Source: Brucella haematophila
GTDB lineage: Bacteria; Pseudomonadota; Alphaproteobacteria; Rhizobiales; Rhizobiaceae
Direction: 5' to 3'
NCBI RefSeq assembly: GCF_005938105.1
Contig: NZ_VCPE01000014.1
Span: 107,827 to 171,826 of the forward strand
Length of the DNA: 64,000 bases
The notes below the pieces were generated by a model that searched no databases, had not been told where the DNA came from, and saw only the letters and a program-made list of their open reading frames with translations. Positions 3,986 to 19,473 of the stretch are shown piece by piece; position 1 is the first letter of the stretch, and every line of letters begins with the position of its first letter. The position numbers were made by a program, and so were the translations under genes.

Positions 3986-5377
3986 ATGGCCAAGGCGCGC
4001 ATTCAGTTCATCTGCCAGAATTGCGGCACAGTGCATACGCGCTGGGCGGGCAAGTGCGATTCCTGTGGCGAGTGGAACACGCTCGTCGAGGAAGGCACCA
4101 ATAGCGGCATCGGTTCCGGTCCAGGCGCCATGTTGTCGAAGCGCAAGGGTCGCGCCGTGGCGCTGACCTCGCTTTCCGGCGATATAGAAGATGCCCCGCG
4201 CATCATTTCCGGCATCAGCGAACTCGACCGGGTAACCGGCGGCGGTTTCGTGCGTGGGTCTGCACTGCTGATCGGCGGCGATCCCGGCATCGGCAAATCC
4301 ACGCTTCTGACGCAGGCCGCAGCAGCCCTTGCCAATCGCGGCCACCGCATCGTCTATGTTTCGGGCGAAGAAGCCGTCGCGCAGATCCGCCTGCGTGCGC
4401 AGCGTCTCGGCGTCGCCACGTCGCCGGTGGAACTTGCCGCCGAAACCAATGTCGAAGACATCATCGCCACCATCTCCGATGGCAAACGCCCTGATCTGGT
4501 GATTATCGATTCGATCCAGACCTTGTGGACCGATATGGCGGATTCGGCCCCCGGCACGGTTACGCAGGTGCGTTCCTCGGCGCAGGCGATGATCCGTTAT
4601 GCCAAGCAGACAGGCGCTGCGGTGGTGCTGGTCGGCCATGTCACCAAGGACGGCCAGATTGCCGGCCCGCGCGTGGTCGAGCATATGGTCGATGGCGTTC
4701 TCTATTTCGAAGGCGAAGGCGGGCATCATTACCGCATCCTGCGCACGGTGAAGAACCGCTTCGGCCCCACCGATGAAATCGGCGTTTTCGAAATGTCCGA
4801 TGGCGGCTTGCGCGAAGTGTCCAATCCGTCCGAGCTTTTTCTCGGCGAACGCAACGAAAAAGCGCCCGGAGCTGCGGTTTTCGCCGGTATGGAAGGCACG
4901 CGCCCGGTTCTGGTGGAAATTCAGGCCCTTGTTGCCCCCTCCTCTCTCGGCACGCCGCGCCGTGCCGTCGTGGGCTGGGATGGCGGGCGTCTCGCCATGA
5001 TCCTCGCCGTGCTGGAATCGCATTGCGGGGTGCGTTTCGGCCAGCATGACGTCTATCTGAATGTTGCGGGCGGCTATCGGATCAGCGAACCGGCGGCCGA
5101 TATTGCCGTTGCATCGGCGCTTGTTTCCTCGATGGCCGGTATTGCCCTTCCGCCAGATTGTGTTTATTTCGGCGAAATCAGCCTTTCCGGTGCTGTTCGT
5201 GCGGTGACGCATGCAGTACAGAGATTGAAGGAAGCAGAGAAACTCGGCTTCCGGCAGGCGGAAGTGCCAAGCGGTAGCGGCGAACTCTGGAAAGATCGCA
5301 GCTTCCGTCTTATGGAAACAGCCGCCCTGCCCGACCTCGTTGCACGCATTGCCGCGGCGGGTGCCGGAAAGAAGTAG
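3986..5377 (+). CDS. radA: DNA repair protein RadA (Sms)
   Basis: RecA-related ATPase and branch-migration helicase that processes recombination intermediates. 463 residues. N-terminal four-cysteine zinc finger (C10, C13, C24, C27), Walker A GDPGIGKST at 98-106, the RadA-specific KNRFG motif, and a C-terminal Lon-protease-like domain (LNVAGGYRISEPAADIAVASAL). This last domain in RadA lacks the Lon catalytic dyad. Every hallmark is present and the length is normal. It is probably co-transcribed with dnaB. Confidence 0.97.
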   Translation: MAKARIQFICQNCGTVHTRWAGKCDSCGEWNTLVEEGTNSGIGSGPGAMLSKRKGRAVALTSLSGDIEDAPRIISGISELDRVTGGGFVRGSALLIGGDPGIGKSTLLTQAAAALANRGHRIVYVSGEEAVAQIRLRAQRLGVATSPVELAAETNVEDIIATISDGKRPDLVIIDSIQTLWTDMADSAPGTVTQVRSSAQAMIRYAKQTGAAVVLVGHVTKDGQIAGPRVVEHMVDGVLYFEGEGGHHYRILRTVKNRFGPTDEIGVFEMSDGGLREVSNPSELFLGERNEKAPGAAVFAGMEGTRPVLVEIQALVAPSSLGTPRRAVVGWDGGRLAMILAVLESHCGVRFGQHDVYLNVAGGYRISEPAADIAVASALVSSMAGIALPPDCVYFGEISLSGAVRAVTHAVQRLKEAEKLGFRQAEVPSGSGELWKDRSFRLMETAALPDLVARIAAAGAGKK

Positions 5378-5490
5378 AAATCGGGAATGTGAAGCTGGAA
5401 GATTCTGTCAACCTTCCAGTGGTAAGCTTCCGCGTCTTTGACTGCCCTGCGCACCGGAACGCTTGCGCGAAAAACTAAGGACAGGCCAGA

Positions 5491-6066
5491 ATGCCCATAA
5501 CCATGCTTGATGGAATTCTACTCGGGATAACGCTGGTATCAGCGGTTCTGGCGATGGTGCGCGGTTTTTCCCGCGAAGTACTGTCGCTCGTATCCTGGGC
5601 TGCGGCAGCAGCTGCCGCTTTCCTATTCTATAAGCCGGTGCTGCCCTACATAAAGCCCTATATCAACAACGAAACCCTTGCGATGATCGCCGCCATGGCT
5701 GCGGTTTTCCTCGTGGTGCTGATCATCGTTTCGCTGATCACCATGAAGATCGCGGATTTCATCATCGACAGCCGCATCGGCGCGCTCGATCGCACGCTGG
5801 GCTTCCTGTTCGGCGCGGCACGCGGTGTTCTGCTGATGGTCGTCGCCATGCTGTTCTTCAACTGGGCGGTGCCGGATAACCAGCCTGCCTGGATCACCAA
5901 TGCGAAATCGAAGCCGATGCTCGATTCCTTCGGCGAACAGCTGCGCAATCTTCTGCCTGCCGACCCGGAATCGATGGTCGACAAGTTCAAGCCGCAGCGC
6001 AATGCACCAGCCACTGGCGAACAGGAAGAAGCGCCTGTTCCGGATGACGCGCCAGCGCAGCAATAA
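5491..6066 (+). CDS. cvpA: CvpA family membrane protein
   Basis: 191-residue inner-membrane protein with about four hydrophobic segments (near residues 5-25, 27-46, 64-86 and 103-125) and a charged, proline/glutamate-rich C-terminal tail. The N-terminal MLDGILLGITLVSAVLAMVR segment and the central SRIGALDRTLGFLFGAARG motif are characteristic of CvpA/colicin V production proteins. It is located directly before purF, as in enterobacteria, where cvpA and purF form one operon; here a terminator-like hairpin lies between them. The molecular role is not settled. Confidence 0.9.
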   Translation: MPITMLDGILLGITLVSAVLAMVRGFSREVLSLVSWAAAAAAAFLFYKPVLPYIKPYINNETLAMIAAMAAVFLVVLIIVSLITMKIADFIIDSRIGALDRTLGFLFGAARGVLLMVVAMLFFNWAVPDNQPAWITNAKSKPMLDSFGEQLRNLLPADPESMVDKFKPQRNAPATGEQEEAPVPDDAPAQQ

Positions 6067-6088
6067 TCAGCACCTGATTTAAAAAATT

Positions 6089-6121
6089 GAAACCGGCTCG
6101 TGCCGGTTTCATCTGTTTTTG
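6089..6121 (+). terminator. Terminator between cvpA and purF
   Basis: Eight-base perfect stem GAAACCGG/CCGGTTTC with a CTCGTG loop, followed by ATCTGTTTTT. Confidence 0.8.
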
Positions 6122-6243
6122 GCCCCAATAAAGGCCTATATGATCGGCTTAACTGACGCGGGTTCAAGGGATCGCTTTCAAAACAGCGTCCTTTCATGTA
6201 AATGTTGTTTTTAACAACCCGCAATCGAAAGGTCTTGCGGACA

Positions 6244-7734
6244 ATGTTCCAACAATCGCATGATGAGACTTCCTTTATGCTGGATGACGACACCCTGCAT
6301 GAAGAGTGTGGTGTATTCGGCATTTTGGGTCATGAGGACGCCGCAGCGCTGACAGCGCTGGGTCTGCACGCCCTTCAGCATCGCGGGCAGGAAGCCGCCG
6401 GTATCGTCTCGTACCACAATCGCCGCTTCCATTCCGAACGCCATATGGGCCTCGTCGGGGACCATTTCACCGACGCCGCCACGCTGAACCGCCTGCCCGG
6501 CGACCGCGCCATCGGCCATGTGCGCTATTCCACGACCGGCGAAACGATCCTGCGCAATGTGCAGCCGCTTTTCGCAGAACTGGAAGTCGGCGGCATTGCG
6601 ATTGCCCATAACGGCAATTTCACCAACGGCATCTCGCTGCGCAAACAGCTCATCGCCTCAGGCGCGATCTTCCAGGCGACTTCCGACACGGAAGTCGTTT
6701 TGCATATGATCGCCCGTTCGCGTTTTGCCTCGTCTTCCGACCGTTTCGTGGATGCGATCCGTCAGGTCGAAGGCGGCTACGCCATGCTGGCACTGACCCG
6801 CACCAAGCTGATCGCCGCGCGCGATAGCATCGGCATTCGTCCGCTCGTCATGGGCGAACTGGATGGCAAGCCGATCTTCTGCTCGGAAACCTGCGCCCTC
6901 GACATCATCGGCGCGAAATACATTCGCGACGTTGAAAATGGCGAAGTGATCGTCTGCGAAATCCAGCAGGACGGCTCGATCACCACCCAGTCCATCAAGG
7001 CGGAAAACCCGCAGCCGGAACGTCTGTGCCTGTTCGAATATGTCTATTTCGCCCGCCCGGATTCTGTCGTCGGCGGACGCAGCGTCTATGTCGCGCGCAA
7101 GAATATGGGTATCGAACTGGCTGGTGAGGCCGGTGTCGAAGCCGATGTCATTGTGCCGGTGCCCGATGGCGGCACGCCTGCGGCGCTCGGCTTTGCGCAG
7201 GCAAGCGGCATTCCTTTCGAATATGGCATCATCCGCAACCATTATGTCGGGCGCACCTTCATCGAGCCGACCCAGCAGATTCGCGCCTTGGGCGTGAAGC
7301 TGAAGCATTCGGCCAATCGTGCCATGATCGAAGGCAAACGTGTTGTGCTGGTGGATGATTCCATCGTGCGCGGCACCACCTCGGTCAAGATCGTGCAGAT
7401 GATGCGCGATGCGGGCGCGAAGGAAGTGCATATACGGGTGGCAAGCCCGATGATCTATCATCCGGATTTCTACGGCATCGACACGCCGCACGCCGACAAG
7501 CTTCTCGCCAACCAGCATGAAGATCTGGAATCCATGTGCCGTTACATCGGCGCGGATTCGCTGGCCTTCCTGTCTATCGACGGTCTCTACAAGGCTGTCG
7601 GCGGCAAGCCGCGTGATCCGAACGCGCCTGCCTTCACGGATCACTATTTCACGGGTGATTACCCGACCCGCCTTCTCGATCAGGAAGGCGAAAGCAACAT
7701 CCACACGCTGTCGCTGCTGGCCAGCAACGGCTAA
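6244..7734 (+). CDS. purF: Amidophosphoribosyltransferase PurF
   Basis: First committed step of purine synthesis: PRPP plus glutamine to 5-phosphoribosylamine. 496 residues from the ATG at 6244, which has AAAGG 11 bases upstream. An in-frame ATG at 6202 would add 14 residues without family support. The short propeptide ends before the nucleophile Cys22 in EECGVFG. The glutaminase domain includes HRGQEAAG and AHNGNFTN. The C-terminal phosphoribosyltransferase domain has the PRPP loop RVVLVDDSIVRGTTS. It lacks the CxxC pattern of Fe-S-containing PurF enzymes near the C-terminus, although I did not align it. Confidence 0.97.
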   Translation: MFQQSHDETSFMLDDDTLHEECGVFGILGHEDAAALTALGLHALQHRGQEAAGIVSYHNRRFHSERHMGLVGDHFTDAATLNRLPGDRAIGHVRYSTTGETILRNVQPLFAELEVGGIAIAHNGNFTNGISLRKQLIASGAIFQATSDTEVVLHMIARSRFASSSDRFVDAIRQVEGGYAMLALTRTKLIAARDSIGIRPLVMGELDGKPIFCSETCALDIIGAKYIRDVENGEVIVCEIQQDGSITTQSIKAENPQPERLCLFEYVYFARPDSVVGGRSVYVARKNMGIELAGEAGVEADVIVPVPDGGTPAALGFAQASGIPFEYGIIRNHYVGRTFIEPTQQIRALGVKLKHSANRAMIEGKRVVLVDDSIVRGTTSVKIVQMMRDAGAKEVHIRVASPMIYHPDFYGIDTPHADKLLANQHEDLESMCRYIGADSLAFLSIDGLYKAVGGKPRDPNAPAFTDHYFTGDYPTRLLDQEGESNIHTLSLLASNG

Positions 7735-17260: not shown

Positions 17261-17292
17261 AAAAATGCCGGGCGCTTTGCCCGGCATTTTGT
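17261..17292. terminator. Bidirectional terminator between AHSA1 and DsbB-like genes
   Basis: Twelve-base stem AAAATGCCGGGC/GCCCGGCATTTT with a GCTTT loop; A-rich on one side and T-rich on the other. Confidence 0.9.
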
Positions 17293-17306
17293 TCGTGCGG
17301 ATAGCA

Positions 17307-17849
17307 TCACGACAATAGCAGATACCCTGTCGGATCTGCTGGGCAGATACCACCACCACATTGCAGCAACGTGGAAACGCCATTCGCGACCGTGAGAACC
17401 ATGAACAATGCGATCGGCAGATAGACTGCAGTTTTCATTGTGAGAGCTGGCTGCACCTCACCAAACTGACGATCAAACAGCAGCATGATCGCCGCGCCGG
17501 TGATCATGAGCGCGGATATGATGAAGCCCCAAGTATAAAAATGCAGATCGAGGAAAGCGTTGCCATAGGCTCCCGTACCGGGAACGATATGCAAAAGAAT
17601 ATGCCGGGCTGCGACCGATCCACTGATTGCAGCGCCCAGGATAATCAATCCGTAATGGCTGGGGCGCATGCCGGTCCTGAGATTGAGAGCGAGACCAAAC
17701 CCGGCCGCGATGATACCGGCGCGCTGCAAGATGCAAAGCGGGCATGGAATATTCCCTTGGACGATCTGATCAGCAAACGCGAACAAGAGCGTGAAACAAA
17801 CGGCTGACAACCCAATAATATTGAGCCAGATCGAATATTTTCTGGTCAT
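17307..17849 (-). CDS. DsbB-like disulfide bond formation protein
   Basis: 180-residue inner-membrane protein from the ATG at 17849 (CGGAAA just upstream). The open frame extends 53 codons further but that part overlaps the small gene at 17860-18012 in another frame. It has four to five hydrophobic helices. The quinone-proximal redox motif C36-P-L-C39 occurs in IPCPLCILQR, as in DsbB. The second cysteine pair is C164 and C169 at the very C-terminus (CGGGIC), rather than in a long periplasmic loop. It is probably an oxidase or reductase exchanging disulfides with a periplasmic thioredoxin. It is coupled to the upstream small membrane-protein gene by a 10-base gap. Confidence 0.88.
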   Translation of the reverse strand: MTRKYSIWLNIIGLSAVCFTLLFAFADQIVQGNIPCPLCILQRAGIIAAGFGLALNLRTGMRPSHYGLIILGAAISGSVAARHILLHIVPGTGAYGNAFLDLHFYTWGFIISALMITGAAIMLLFDRQFGEVQPALTMKTAVYLPIALFMVLTVANGVSTLLQCGGGICPADPTGYLLLS

Positions 17850-17859
17850 TTTTTCCGTA

Positions 17860-18012
17860 TCACAATGCAATATTGATTGAATCCGTGGCATGCAGGCTGA
17901 ACAAAGCCAAAATGCAGACGACACCACTGCCCCAGAATACGAGCGCGATGGTCCGCCTTCTAAACCAGGTCGCAACCAGGCCAACAAAGAAGAGAAAAAA
18001 GGACACACTCAT
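17860..18012 (-). CDS. Small membrane protein, DUF5993-like, upstream of the DsbB-like gene
   Basis: 50-codon gene. The translation begins MSVSFFLFFVGLVATW, has a basic FRRR turn at 17-20, a second hydrophobic stretch VFWGSGVVCILALFSL (25-40) and ends in the motif HATDSINIAL. An ATG three bases further upstream (18015) is also in frame. Two short transmembrane helices around RRR and a terminal HATD motif match my recollection of the DUF5993 family, about 50 residues long and typically found next to DsbB-like genes. Its stop is 10 bases from the DsbB-like start, and the Shine-Dalgarno of that gene lies in the gap. The function is unknown. Confidence 0.75.
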   Translation of the reverse strand: MSVSFFLFFVGLVATWFRRRTIALVFWGSGVVCILALFSLHATDSINIAL

Positions 18013-18231
18013 CATCGCAATATTCAGTTCTCAAAAAGTCGTAGGAAAGGAATACGCATAGATTCGCATTCCACGGGAAGACTGTAGAACTAATGCAAAT
18101 TCGGTGTATTGTGAAAATCGCAGAATAGAGGTCGCATAAAGCAGCTCCTAAAAATTACTGATTACATTCTTGAGGAAATCGATCGGCGGTCAATCCGTTA
18201 CTGATCAAATACCAGCAGATAGGATTGCCAC

Positions 18232-19473
18232 CTATTTCTTCACCAGCGTCACAACTGCTTCCACATGCGGAGACCACAAAAACTGGTCGATAGGCGTGAC
18301 ACGCTGGATGCGGTAGCCGCCCTTCACCAGAATGGCGAGATCGCGGGCAAGCGTGACCGGGTTGCACGACACGGCAACCACCTTTTCCACCTTGGACTTC
18401 GCCAGTTCCTGCGCCTGTTCTTCGGCACCCGCACGCGGCGGATCGAAGACAACGGCGTTGTAAGGCAGCAATTCCTTCGGCATTAGCGGGCGGCGAAACA
18501 GGTCGCGCCGTTCAACGCTCACCGGCTTCAACCCCTGTACATGGCGCACGCCACGGTCGAGCGCCGCCAGAGCCGCCGCATCATTTTCCACCGCATGGAC
18601 CGCGCTTTTCTCTGCCATTCTCAGCGCGAAAGTGCCGACACCGCAGAAAAGATCGGCGACGCGCTTTGCCTTGCCGACATGGTTCAGCACCAGCGCCGTC
18701 ATCGCCTCTTCAGCCTCGGCGGTTGCTTGCAGGAAGCAGCCGGGCGGCACCGGAACCGGAACCTTGCCGAAATGGATCAGCGGCTTTTTTGGCTCGACGA
18801 TGATTTCGCCTTCATGCGAAAGGCGTGCAAAGCCCTTCTTGATGACCAGCGCGGTCAAGGCGCGGCGCTGGTCGTCATCCAGCACACCGCAACCGCTTGC
18901 CGCGAGATCAAGGCCGGATTCCGTCAGTGTCGCCGCCAGTTTGAACGGCTTGGAACCCGGCGCCAGCAATGCGCCGACATCGCGCAGGTCGTCGAGGCGC
19001 GCGATGATTTCCGGCACGGTGACCGGGCATTCGACAATATCGATGATTTCGTGGCTGAGATGGCGATTGAAGCCGAGCAGAACGCCCTTCTCCGTCTTGC
19101 GCGCGGCAAAGACGGCGCGGCGGCGCGTATGCGGTGCACAGGCCACCAGCGGTTCAACTTCAACATCAATGCCCCTGCCCTTCAGGGCCGAGACAACCAG
19201 TTCGCGCTTCCACAGACGGTAGGGTTCATCCTGCCAGTGTTGCAGCGCACAACCGCCGCAGGCCTCGAAATGCTCGCAGGCCGGGTCCTGCCGTTCCGGC
19301 GATGCTTCCAGCAATGCGATCAGCGTCGCGCGGTTCTTGTCGCGCGCCACATTGGCCACTTCGCCCGGCAGCGTGAAAGGCACATAGATCTGACCATCGG
19401 GAAGATTGGCGACGCCATCGCCGCCCGCACCAATCGAGCGGATTGTTATTTGCCCCATTGCTGGCATCGTCAT
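18232..19473 (-). CDS. TrmA/RumA-family class I RNA (uracil-C5) methyltransferase
   Basis: 413 residues. Iron-sulfur cysteines C66, C72 and C75 (CEHFEACGGC) sit after a short TRAM-like N-terminus. The SAM domain has ADLFCGVGTFAL, the DPPRAG motif, and the nucleophile cysteine in AVSCNPVTLARD. This is the RlmD/RlmC/TrmA group, which methylates C5 of uridine in 23S rRNA or tRNA; which one cannot be told from sequence alone. Its start overlaps the tlyA stop by four bases (ATGA), so two RNA methyltransferases are translationally coupled. Confidence 0.93.
   Translation of the reverse strand: MTMPAMGQITIRSIGAGGDGVANLPDGQIYVPFTLPGEVANVARDKNRATLIALLEASPERQDPACEHFEACGGCALQHWQDEPYRLWKRELVVSALKGRGIDVEVEPLVACAPHTRRRAVFAARKTEKGVLLGFNRHLSHEIIDIVECPVTVPEIIARLDDLRDVGALLAPGSKPFKLAATLTESGLDLAASGCGVLDDDQRRALTALVIKKGFARLSHEGEIIVEPKKPLIHFGKVPVPVPPGCFLQATAEAEEAMTALVLNHVGKAKRVADLFCGVGTFALRMAEKSAVHAVENDAAALAALDRGVRHVQGLKPVSVERRDLFRRPLMPKELLPYNAVVFDPPRAGAEEQAQELAKSKVEKVVAVSCNPVTLARDLAILVKGGYRIQRVTPIDQFLWSPHVEAVVTLVKK

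Follow-up and report, generated by a model that had tools for sequence, protein, structure and literature searches.

A DUF5993 small membrane protein gene is paired with a divergent DsbB-like gene in Brucella haematophila and probably encodes a subunit of a DsbI-like class of DsbB

In Brucella haematophila, a gene for a small membrane protein of the DUF5993 family lies directly upstream of a gene for a divergent DsbB-like protein, and the two form a compact cassette in the 64,000-nucleotide stretch of contig NZ_VCPE01000014.1 analyzed here (referred to as the window; Table 1). We consider it likely that DUF5993 serves a DsbI-like class of DsbB as a dedicated and nearly obligate subunit, with its tail placed at the second periplasmic loop (loop 2) and the cysteine pair of the enzyme. 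The preliminary description of this DNA had put forward an accessory subunit as an inference. The evidence counted for a subunit comprises the pairing seen from either gene (41/41 and 79/80), a control without the small gene (0/31), the invariant His41 and positively charged hairpin loop of the small protein, one inter-protein coupling (A49-A94), the Dba-DsbI precedent in Campylobacter jejuni, and the matches of this class of DsbB to the DsbI model.

Table 1. Features of the DUF5993-DsbB cassette, in window positions
Feature	Position	Strand	Basis or remark
Small membrane protein gene (DUF5993), 50 aa; 51 aa if begun at ATG 18015	17860..18012	-	PF19455, purifying selection, predicted helices
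10-nt spacer with weak SD-like CGGA	17850..17859	-	Sequence TACGGAAAAA
DsbB-like gene, 180 aa, five predicted helices	17307..17849	-	PF02600 over residues 9-90 only
C36-P-L-C39 codons (CXXC pair)	17733..17744	-	Invariant in 59-row alignment; aligns with E. coli DsbB CVLC
C164 to C169 codons, relocated CX4C pair after helix 5	17343..17360	-	Sequence, named loci, alignment
Two-gene cassette with leader	17290..18235	-	Congener G119 has 10 other bases instead
Terminator-like site, 12-pair stem, T-rich tail	17262..17290	-	Scan; G119 comparison

The 50-residue gene is real but easily overlooked. Its translation matches exactly the ORF ending in HATDSINIAL that had been described from the sequence alone, and it opens with a double ATG, the second in-frame ATG lying one codon earlier. 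The small protein matches PF19455 (DUF5993) with an E value of 7.4e-10 and 39.3 bits against a cutoff of 27, over profile positions 1 to 50 of 50, which bears out the earlier assignment to this family, for which a Pfam HMM search had been proposed as a check. PF19455 also matches all of the 59 aligned small-protein homologs at an E value of 0.1 or better, and a PDB sequence search with the small protein gave no match at an E value of 10. The two-helix architecture claimed earlier reappears in the AlphaFold model, in which helices are predicted at residues 2 to 16 and 20 to 42 and are followed by an extended tail (residues 43 to 50), where confidence is lowest (block mean, 69). AlphaFold was applied to single chains only, and the folds cover 59 of 85 nonredundant pairs, taken from the window or the related-locus search. 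Among 106 distinct pairs, His41 is invariant (106/106) and Phe5 and Leu/Ile46 are nearly so. Lysine and arginine residues average 2.0 in the hairpin loop, 0 at the N terminus, and 0.14 at the C terminus (n = 85). The pooled pN/pS of the small frame is 0.17 when 149 pairs of relatives sharing 70% or more DNA identity are combined, pairs that overlap and so are not independent; the window's own small three-way comparison with L033 (Ochrobactrum sp. RH2CCR150) and L034 gave 1 to 4 nonsynonymous and 3 to 6 synonymous changes at about 117 and 36 sites, respectively. By this sequence comparison the small frame is under purifying selection, and the reading frame, whose conservation had been named beforehand as a test of the gene, is conserved. 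PF19455 is listed in Pfam as a family of unknown function, for which the present analysis supplies a partner.

The DsbB-like protein scores 41.2 bits with PF02600 (cutoff, 22.1) over profile positions 4 to 86 of 148 only. C36, C39, and R43, the residue at CXXC+4, are invariant in 59 aligned rows. Residues 89 to 103, which cover the predicted second periplasmic loop between helices 3 and 4, contain no cysteine; a pair is present at positions 164 and 169 instead, and the protein ends 11 residues past C169. The preliminary description had called the protein unusual for this C-terminal pair, and both cysteines stand where it placed them in the 180-residue protein. Among the best 80 of at least 371 confirmed DsbB relatives, 78 carry CX4C, one carries CX5C, and one has a broken frame; a C-terminal cysteine pair is the rule among close relatives (79/80). 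The position equivalent to E47 of Escherichia coli DsbB is Gln in 59 of 59 rows of the clade, and the one aligned with H91 is Gln in at least 90% of the clade and His in the window protein. A Foldseek search with the model of the DsbB-like protein gave no match at an E value of 0.001 (best, 6wvf; E value, 0.037). In a tree of 43 of the 85 variants and 31 ordinary DsbBs, which comes with a long-branch warning, the variants form one side of a branch with support of 100/100 and a length of 3.28. The Bartonella variants sit among enterobacterial sequences in this tree (99/97), a placement that suggests transfer.

Four samples were searched for DUF5993: the family (matches in 6 of 151 genomes), the phylum (16 of 398), the class (8 of 385), and a different class within the phylum (16 of 369). 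Together they give 41 distinct genomes, of which 40 exceed the Pfam cutoff. A DsbB-like ORF lies directly downstream on the same strand in all 41 (partial at L151), and no DUF5993 gene lacking an adjoining DsbB-like gene was found among these genomes. The neighborhood survey of homologs suggested in the preliminary description thus found DsbB-like neighbors throughout (41/41 genomes and 79 of the best 80 named loci). In a separate Pfam search of the 41 genomes, the DsbB match beside each DUF5993 place is limited to the first 84 to 88 profile positions. G931, G1062, and G1163, which belong to one genus, hold a second part-profile DsbB match without a Pfam DUF5993 hit (loci L174, L175, and L176). 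Each of these seemingly lone copies has a divergent small gene in front of it, detected with our own profile at E values of 1.4e-10 to 1.3e-9, and they are counted for a subunit as well. In these divergent DsbB-like copies, CALC replaces CPLC. Another very divergent pair, at L006, has a small protein under the Pfam cutoff and a DsbB-like protein ending in QCGLDQC...GYRLLP.

The pairing was also followed from the DsbB side, by scanning named genomes with the DsbB-like alignment alone and retaining the best 80 of at least 371 confirmed relatives, a choice that undersamples distant members. The upstream ORFs were tested with a profile for which 20 of the small proteins sampled above served as seeds, with E values set for 1,000 sequences. 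The small gene lies just upstream at an E value of 1e-3 or better in 79 of the 80 loci, and the 80th (Legionella londiniensis, L066) has an upstream ORF with a weaker E value of 0.0022. Three named loci (L046, L101, and L109) equal a profile seed, and their exclusion leaves 76 of 77; the genome and named sets overlap. DsbB was found in 21 plasmid records, and nine were fetched (Serratia, Salmonella, Pantoea, Pandoraea, Vibrio, and Legionella), all of which carry the small gene by the profile (9/9). The gene is absent from the listed annotation of two of them (L009 and L013), and no genes are listed there for the Vibrio record; the gene table describes itself as incomplete. Because the profile finds the gene in all nine, tblastn, which gave a single weak partial match of the small protein on plasmids, is too blunt for it. 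The Vibrio campbellii plasmid record (L010) carries two tandem DUF5993-DsbB pairs at 4834-6471.

Ordinary DsbB loci served as the control. A search of 100 genomes located 71 DsbB places; at five of them, in G000, G178, G185, G188, and G238, all DUF5993 positive, the match is confined to the initial part of the profile. At 31 ordinary loci, consisting of the 30 best-scoring of the 71 places and the second DsbB of the window genome, no DUF5993-like ORF was detected (0/31; best chance hit, E value of 0.2), and all 31 carry the loop-2 cysteine pair, as read from the cysteine positions. Another, full-profile DsbB is present in 39 of the 41 DUF5993 genomes (absent in G1094 and G1168), so the pair is usually an extra DsbB and its role is probably accessory. 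A third partner gene was sought by clustering the ORFs of at least 100 aa at the 80 named loci and viewing the 25 largest clusters, and this candidate was rejected: beyond DsbB itself (80 loci) and antisense ORFs, no cluster exceeds 11 loci, and most are confined to Bartonella, Ruegeria, or Ancylobacter and their kin. One cluster, from six loci of different genera, is an ABC transporter, which is a very common family. In these comparisons, L006 and L031 were left out of the pair table, L039, for which no start fell inside the set limits, out of the pairs, L050 (broken DsbB frame) out of the folds and coupling analysis, and L151 (partial DsbB) out of the coupling analysis. The titles and abstracts returned by a literature search restricted to open-access articles contained nothing about a DUF5993-DsbB pair.

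The 10-base gap between the stop of the small gene and the DsbB start, as claimed earlier, is confirmed (Table 1); the Shine-Dalgarno sequence said to lie in it is present as an SD-like CGGA, but this is weak. A loose motif search over the stop codon, gap, and start codon found an SD-like match in 64 of 85 nonredundant pairs. The DsbB start was taken as the ATG or GTG nearest a 10-nt gap, a choice that favors 10; on this basis, 30 of 79 named loci have a 10-nt gap. Where only one start was a candidate (64 loci), 24 loci have a gap of 10 nt and 47 have one of 8 to 12 nt. The leader of the cassette contains a 15-codon ORF (window 18090-18137, minus strand) preceded by a TAGGAG site (MRPLFCDFHNTPNLH), the start and length of which are kept in L033 and L034, with some residues differing; this ORF possibly encodes a leader peptide.

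The pair is absent from both congeners examined. G119 differs at the cassette itself and has the terminator-like stretch directly after the upstream methyltransferase gene, which we take to be rlmD-like, and G016 differs over a longer stretch. The terminator scan is weak when taken alone, with 2 such sites found in 1.1 kb against 1.4 expected. The GC content of the cassette is 0.49, versus 0.58 for the window. A search of phages with the DsbB-like protein gave no match at an E value of 0.01, and E. coli genomes gave no DNA match to the Salmonella copy. One viral-classed contig (L173) carries the pair, with a small protein identical to that of Erwinia sp. OLFS4 (L101), and this pair may belong to the host flank of a provirus. 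In the Pantoea stewartii plasmid (L032; 4774-6346), the DUF5993 and DsbB-like genes are followed by a phytochelatin synthase-family gene. In addition, a copper-shock gene list of Erwinia amylovora, in PMC12542790, includes a DUF5993 gene. These two cases give a hint of a link to metal stress.

Direct-coupling analysis of 124 pairs (effective number, 82) ranked A49 of the small protein with A94 of the DsbB-like protein, which lies in loop 2, second of all couplings and strongest of those between the proteins. This coupling exceeds the largest simulated inter-protein value in 24 of 24 simulations, and in a second round, its z score of 8.3 was reached by 1 of 99 and its raw score by 0 of 99. The null consisted of alignments simulated on the same tree under a site-mixture model, and 99 of 150 second-round runs were scored. 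All other inter-protein couplings fall within the simulated range, leaving a coevolution signal that consists of a single residue pair, significant at roughly 1%. A49-A94 would join two elements that are both expected on the periplasmic side and is suggestive of a contact. In the proposed subunit arrangement, the DsbB-like chain would form a four-helix quinone-reducing core with the CXXC pair (C36-C39) and R43, its second periplasmic loop is shortened and free of cysteines, and the fifth helix would bring the replacement pair C164/C169 to the periplasm. DUF5993 would be a hairpin of two helices, with the positive loop on the inner side of the membrane and the two termini on the outer side, and His41 and the HATDxLxIxL tail would lie at the periplasmic face, packing against the shortened loop and the C-terminal cysteine pair. 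It would stabilize the enzyme and probably shape the active site, and electrons would pass from a DsbA-like partner to C164/C169, then to C36/C39, and then to quinone. PMC11208910 states that C44 of E. coli DsbB is activated toward quinone by E47 and H91, that the CXXC+4 residue matters for quinone use, and that not every DsbB has H91, a Pseudomonas DsbB having Leu in its place. Both equivalent positions are Gln in nearly all of the clade. A two-chain oxidase with a split active site can be envisaged, in which His41 would act in trans as a base or quinone-site residue replacing E47-H91 and the tail would replace loop 2; we regard this extension as unlikely.

Counted against a subunit are the single standout coupling, the single-chain nature of the models and their low confidence at the tail of the small protein, the additional DsbB in 39 of the 41 genomes, and the fact that close gene pairing could also arise if the two genes are solely coupled in translation or regulated together. 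The small gene might be a leader ORF with an inert product, whose translation opens the DsbB start. The gaps are short, some genes overlap, and C. jejuni offers a parallel. There, as reported in PMC3167755, dba lies 11 bp upstream of dsbI and encodes a protein predicted in the inner membrane; point mutations stopping Dba translation abolished DsbI without loss of the mRNA, Dba supplied from the chromosome failed to act in trans, and placing dsbI under its own promoter yielded DsbI in the absence of Dba, migrating slightly faster, which is also counted against a subunit. An inert product, however, does not fit the strong amino acid conservation (His41, Phe5, Leu/Ile46, and the low pN/pS), and with gaps ranging from -4 to 24 nt, the two genes do not keep a constant frame relative to each other. 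In addition, RNA occlusion of the DsbB start gave no clear sign in 85 pairs: the start region is about as accessible as the gene interior (0.41 versus 0.43; lower in 49 of 85). We therefore judge a leader ORF quite improbable. A factor that aids assembly or stability solely during folding of the DsbB-like protein, rather than as a permanent subunit, overlaps with the subunit reading and is a tentative possibility of more weight: DsbI in E. coli is degraded when Dba is missing, and a chaperone role was proposed for Dba by the authors of PMC3167755. A fixed site is nevertheless suggested by the invariant His, the coupling to loop 2, and the conserved, putatively periplasmic tail.

Two further readings separate the small frame from the enzyme altogether. 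A hydrophobic toxin or stress peptide merely sharing the operon would agree with the size and hydrophobicity of the product and with the copper-shock list (PMC12542790), but a family never met without its DsbB-like neighbor in 41 genomes makes such independence very improbable. Alternatively, the small ORF might not be a gene, and the DsbB-like protein might begin upstream in its own frame, which is open back to a GTG at 18008 (233-aa ORF); in L033, a 242-aa ORF from a TTG likewise runs into DsbB. The gap in L033 is 11, however, so its upstream frame differs from that of the window, which has a stop there, and the Pfam match belongs to the small frame. An N-terminally extended DsbB was rejected on these grounds and is virtually out of the question.

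With a dedicated subunit as the preferred reading, a domain of unknown function gains a partner and a testable job, and DsbBs whose cysteine pair has moved are marked out as a clade. To our knowledge, dependence on a small partner is otherwise known from one Campylobacter enzyme only; the present pairing suggests that such reliance may hold generally across a broad and mobile class of disulfide oxidases. These DsbBs, if expressed alone, may yield inactive or unstable enzyme.

Among known systems, Dba-DsbI comes closest, and the window pair resembles a relative of it that has no propeller, with Dba as the putative counterpart of DUF5993. The DsbI model matches 59 of 59 window-type DsbBs at an E value of 0.01 or better (best, 3.6e-13), including the window protein (E value, 0.0045; 15.5 bits, below the full-length cutoff of 800 bits), and the match extends through helix 5 in two of three members checked. 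As a control, one of seven canonical DsbBs (of the 31) matches the model at an E value of 0.1, over residues 11 to 54 only (44 residues). In both systems, the gene for a small, predicted membrane protein lies directly upstream of one encoding a DsbB-like protein with CXXC, Arg, and five helices, predicted ones in the window type, whereas DsbI, as described in PMC4460558, has no second cysteine pair and carries a C-terminal beta-propeller, and the window type has CX4C and no propeller. Canonical E. coli DsbB has a 37-residue loop 2, whereas that of the window type has 7 residues and lacks the loop-2 cysteine pair; relative to canonical DsbB, the window type adds a predicted fifth helix, a C-terminal CX4C pair, and a constant small partner.
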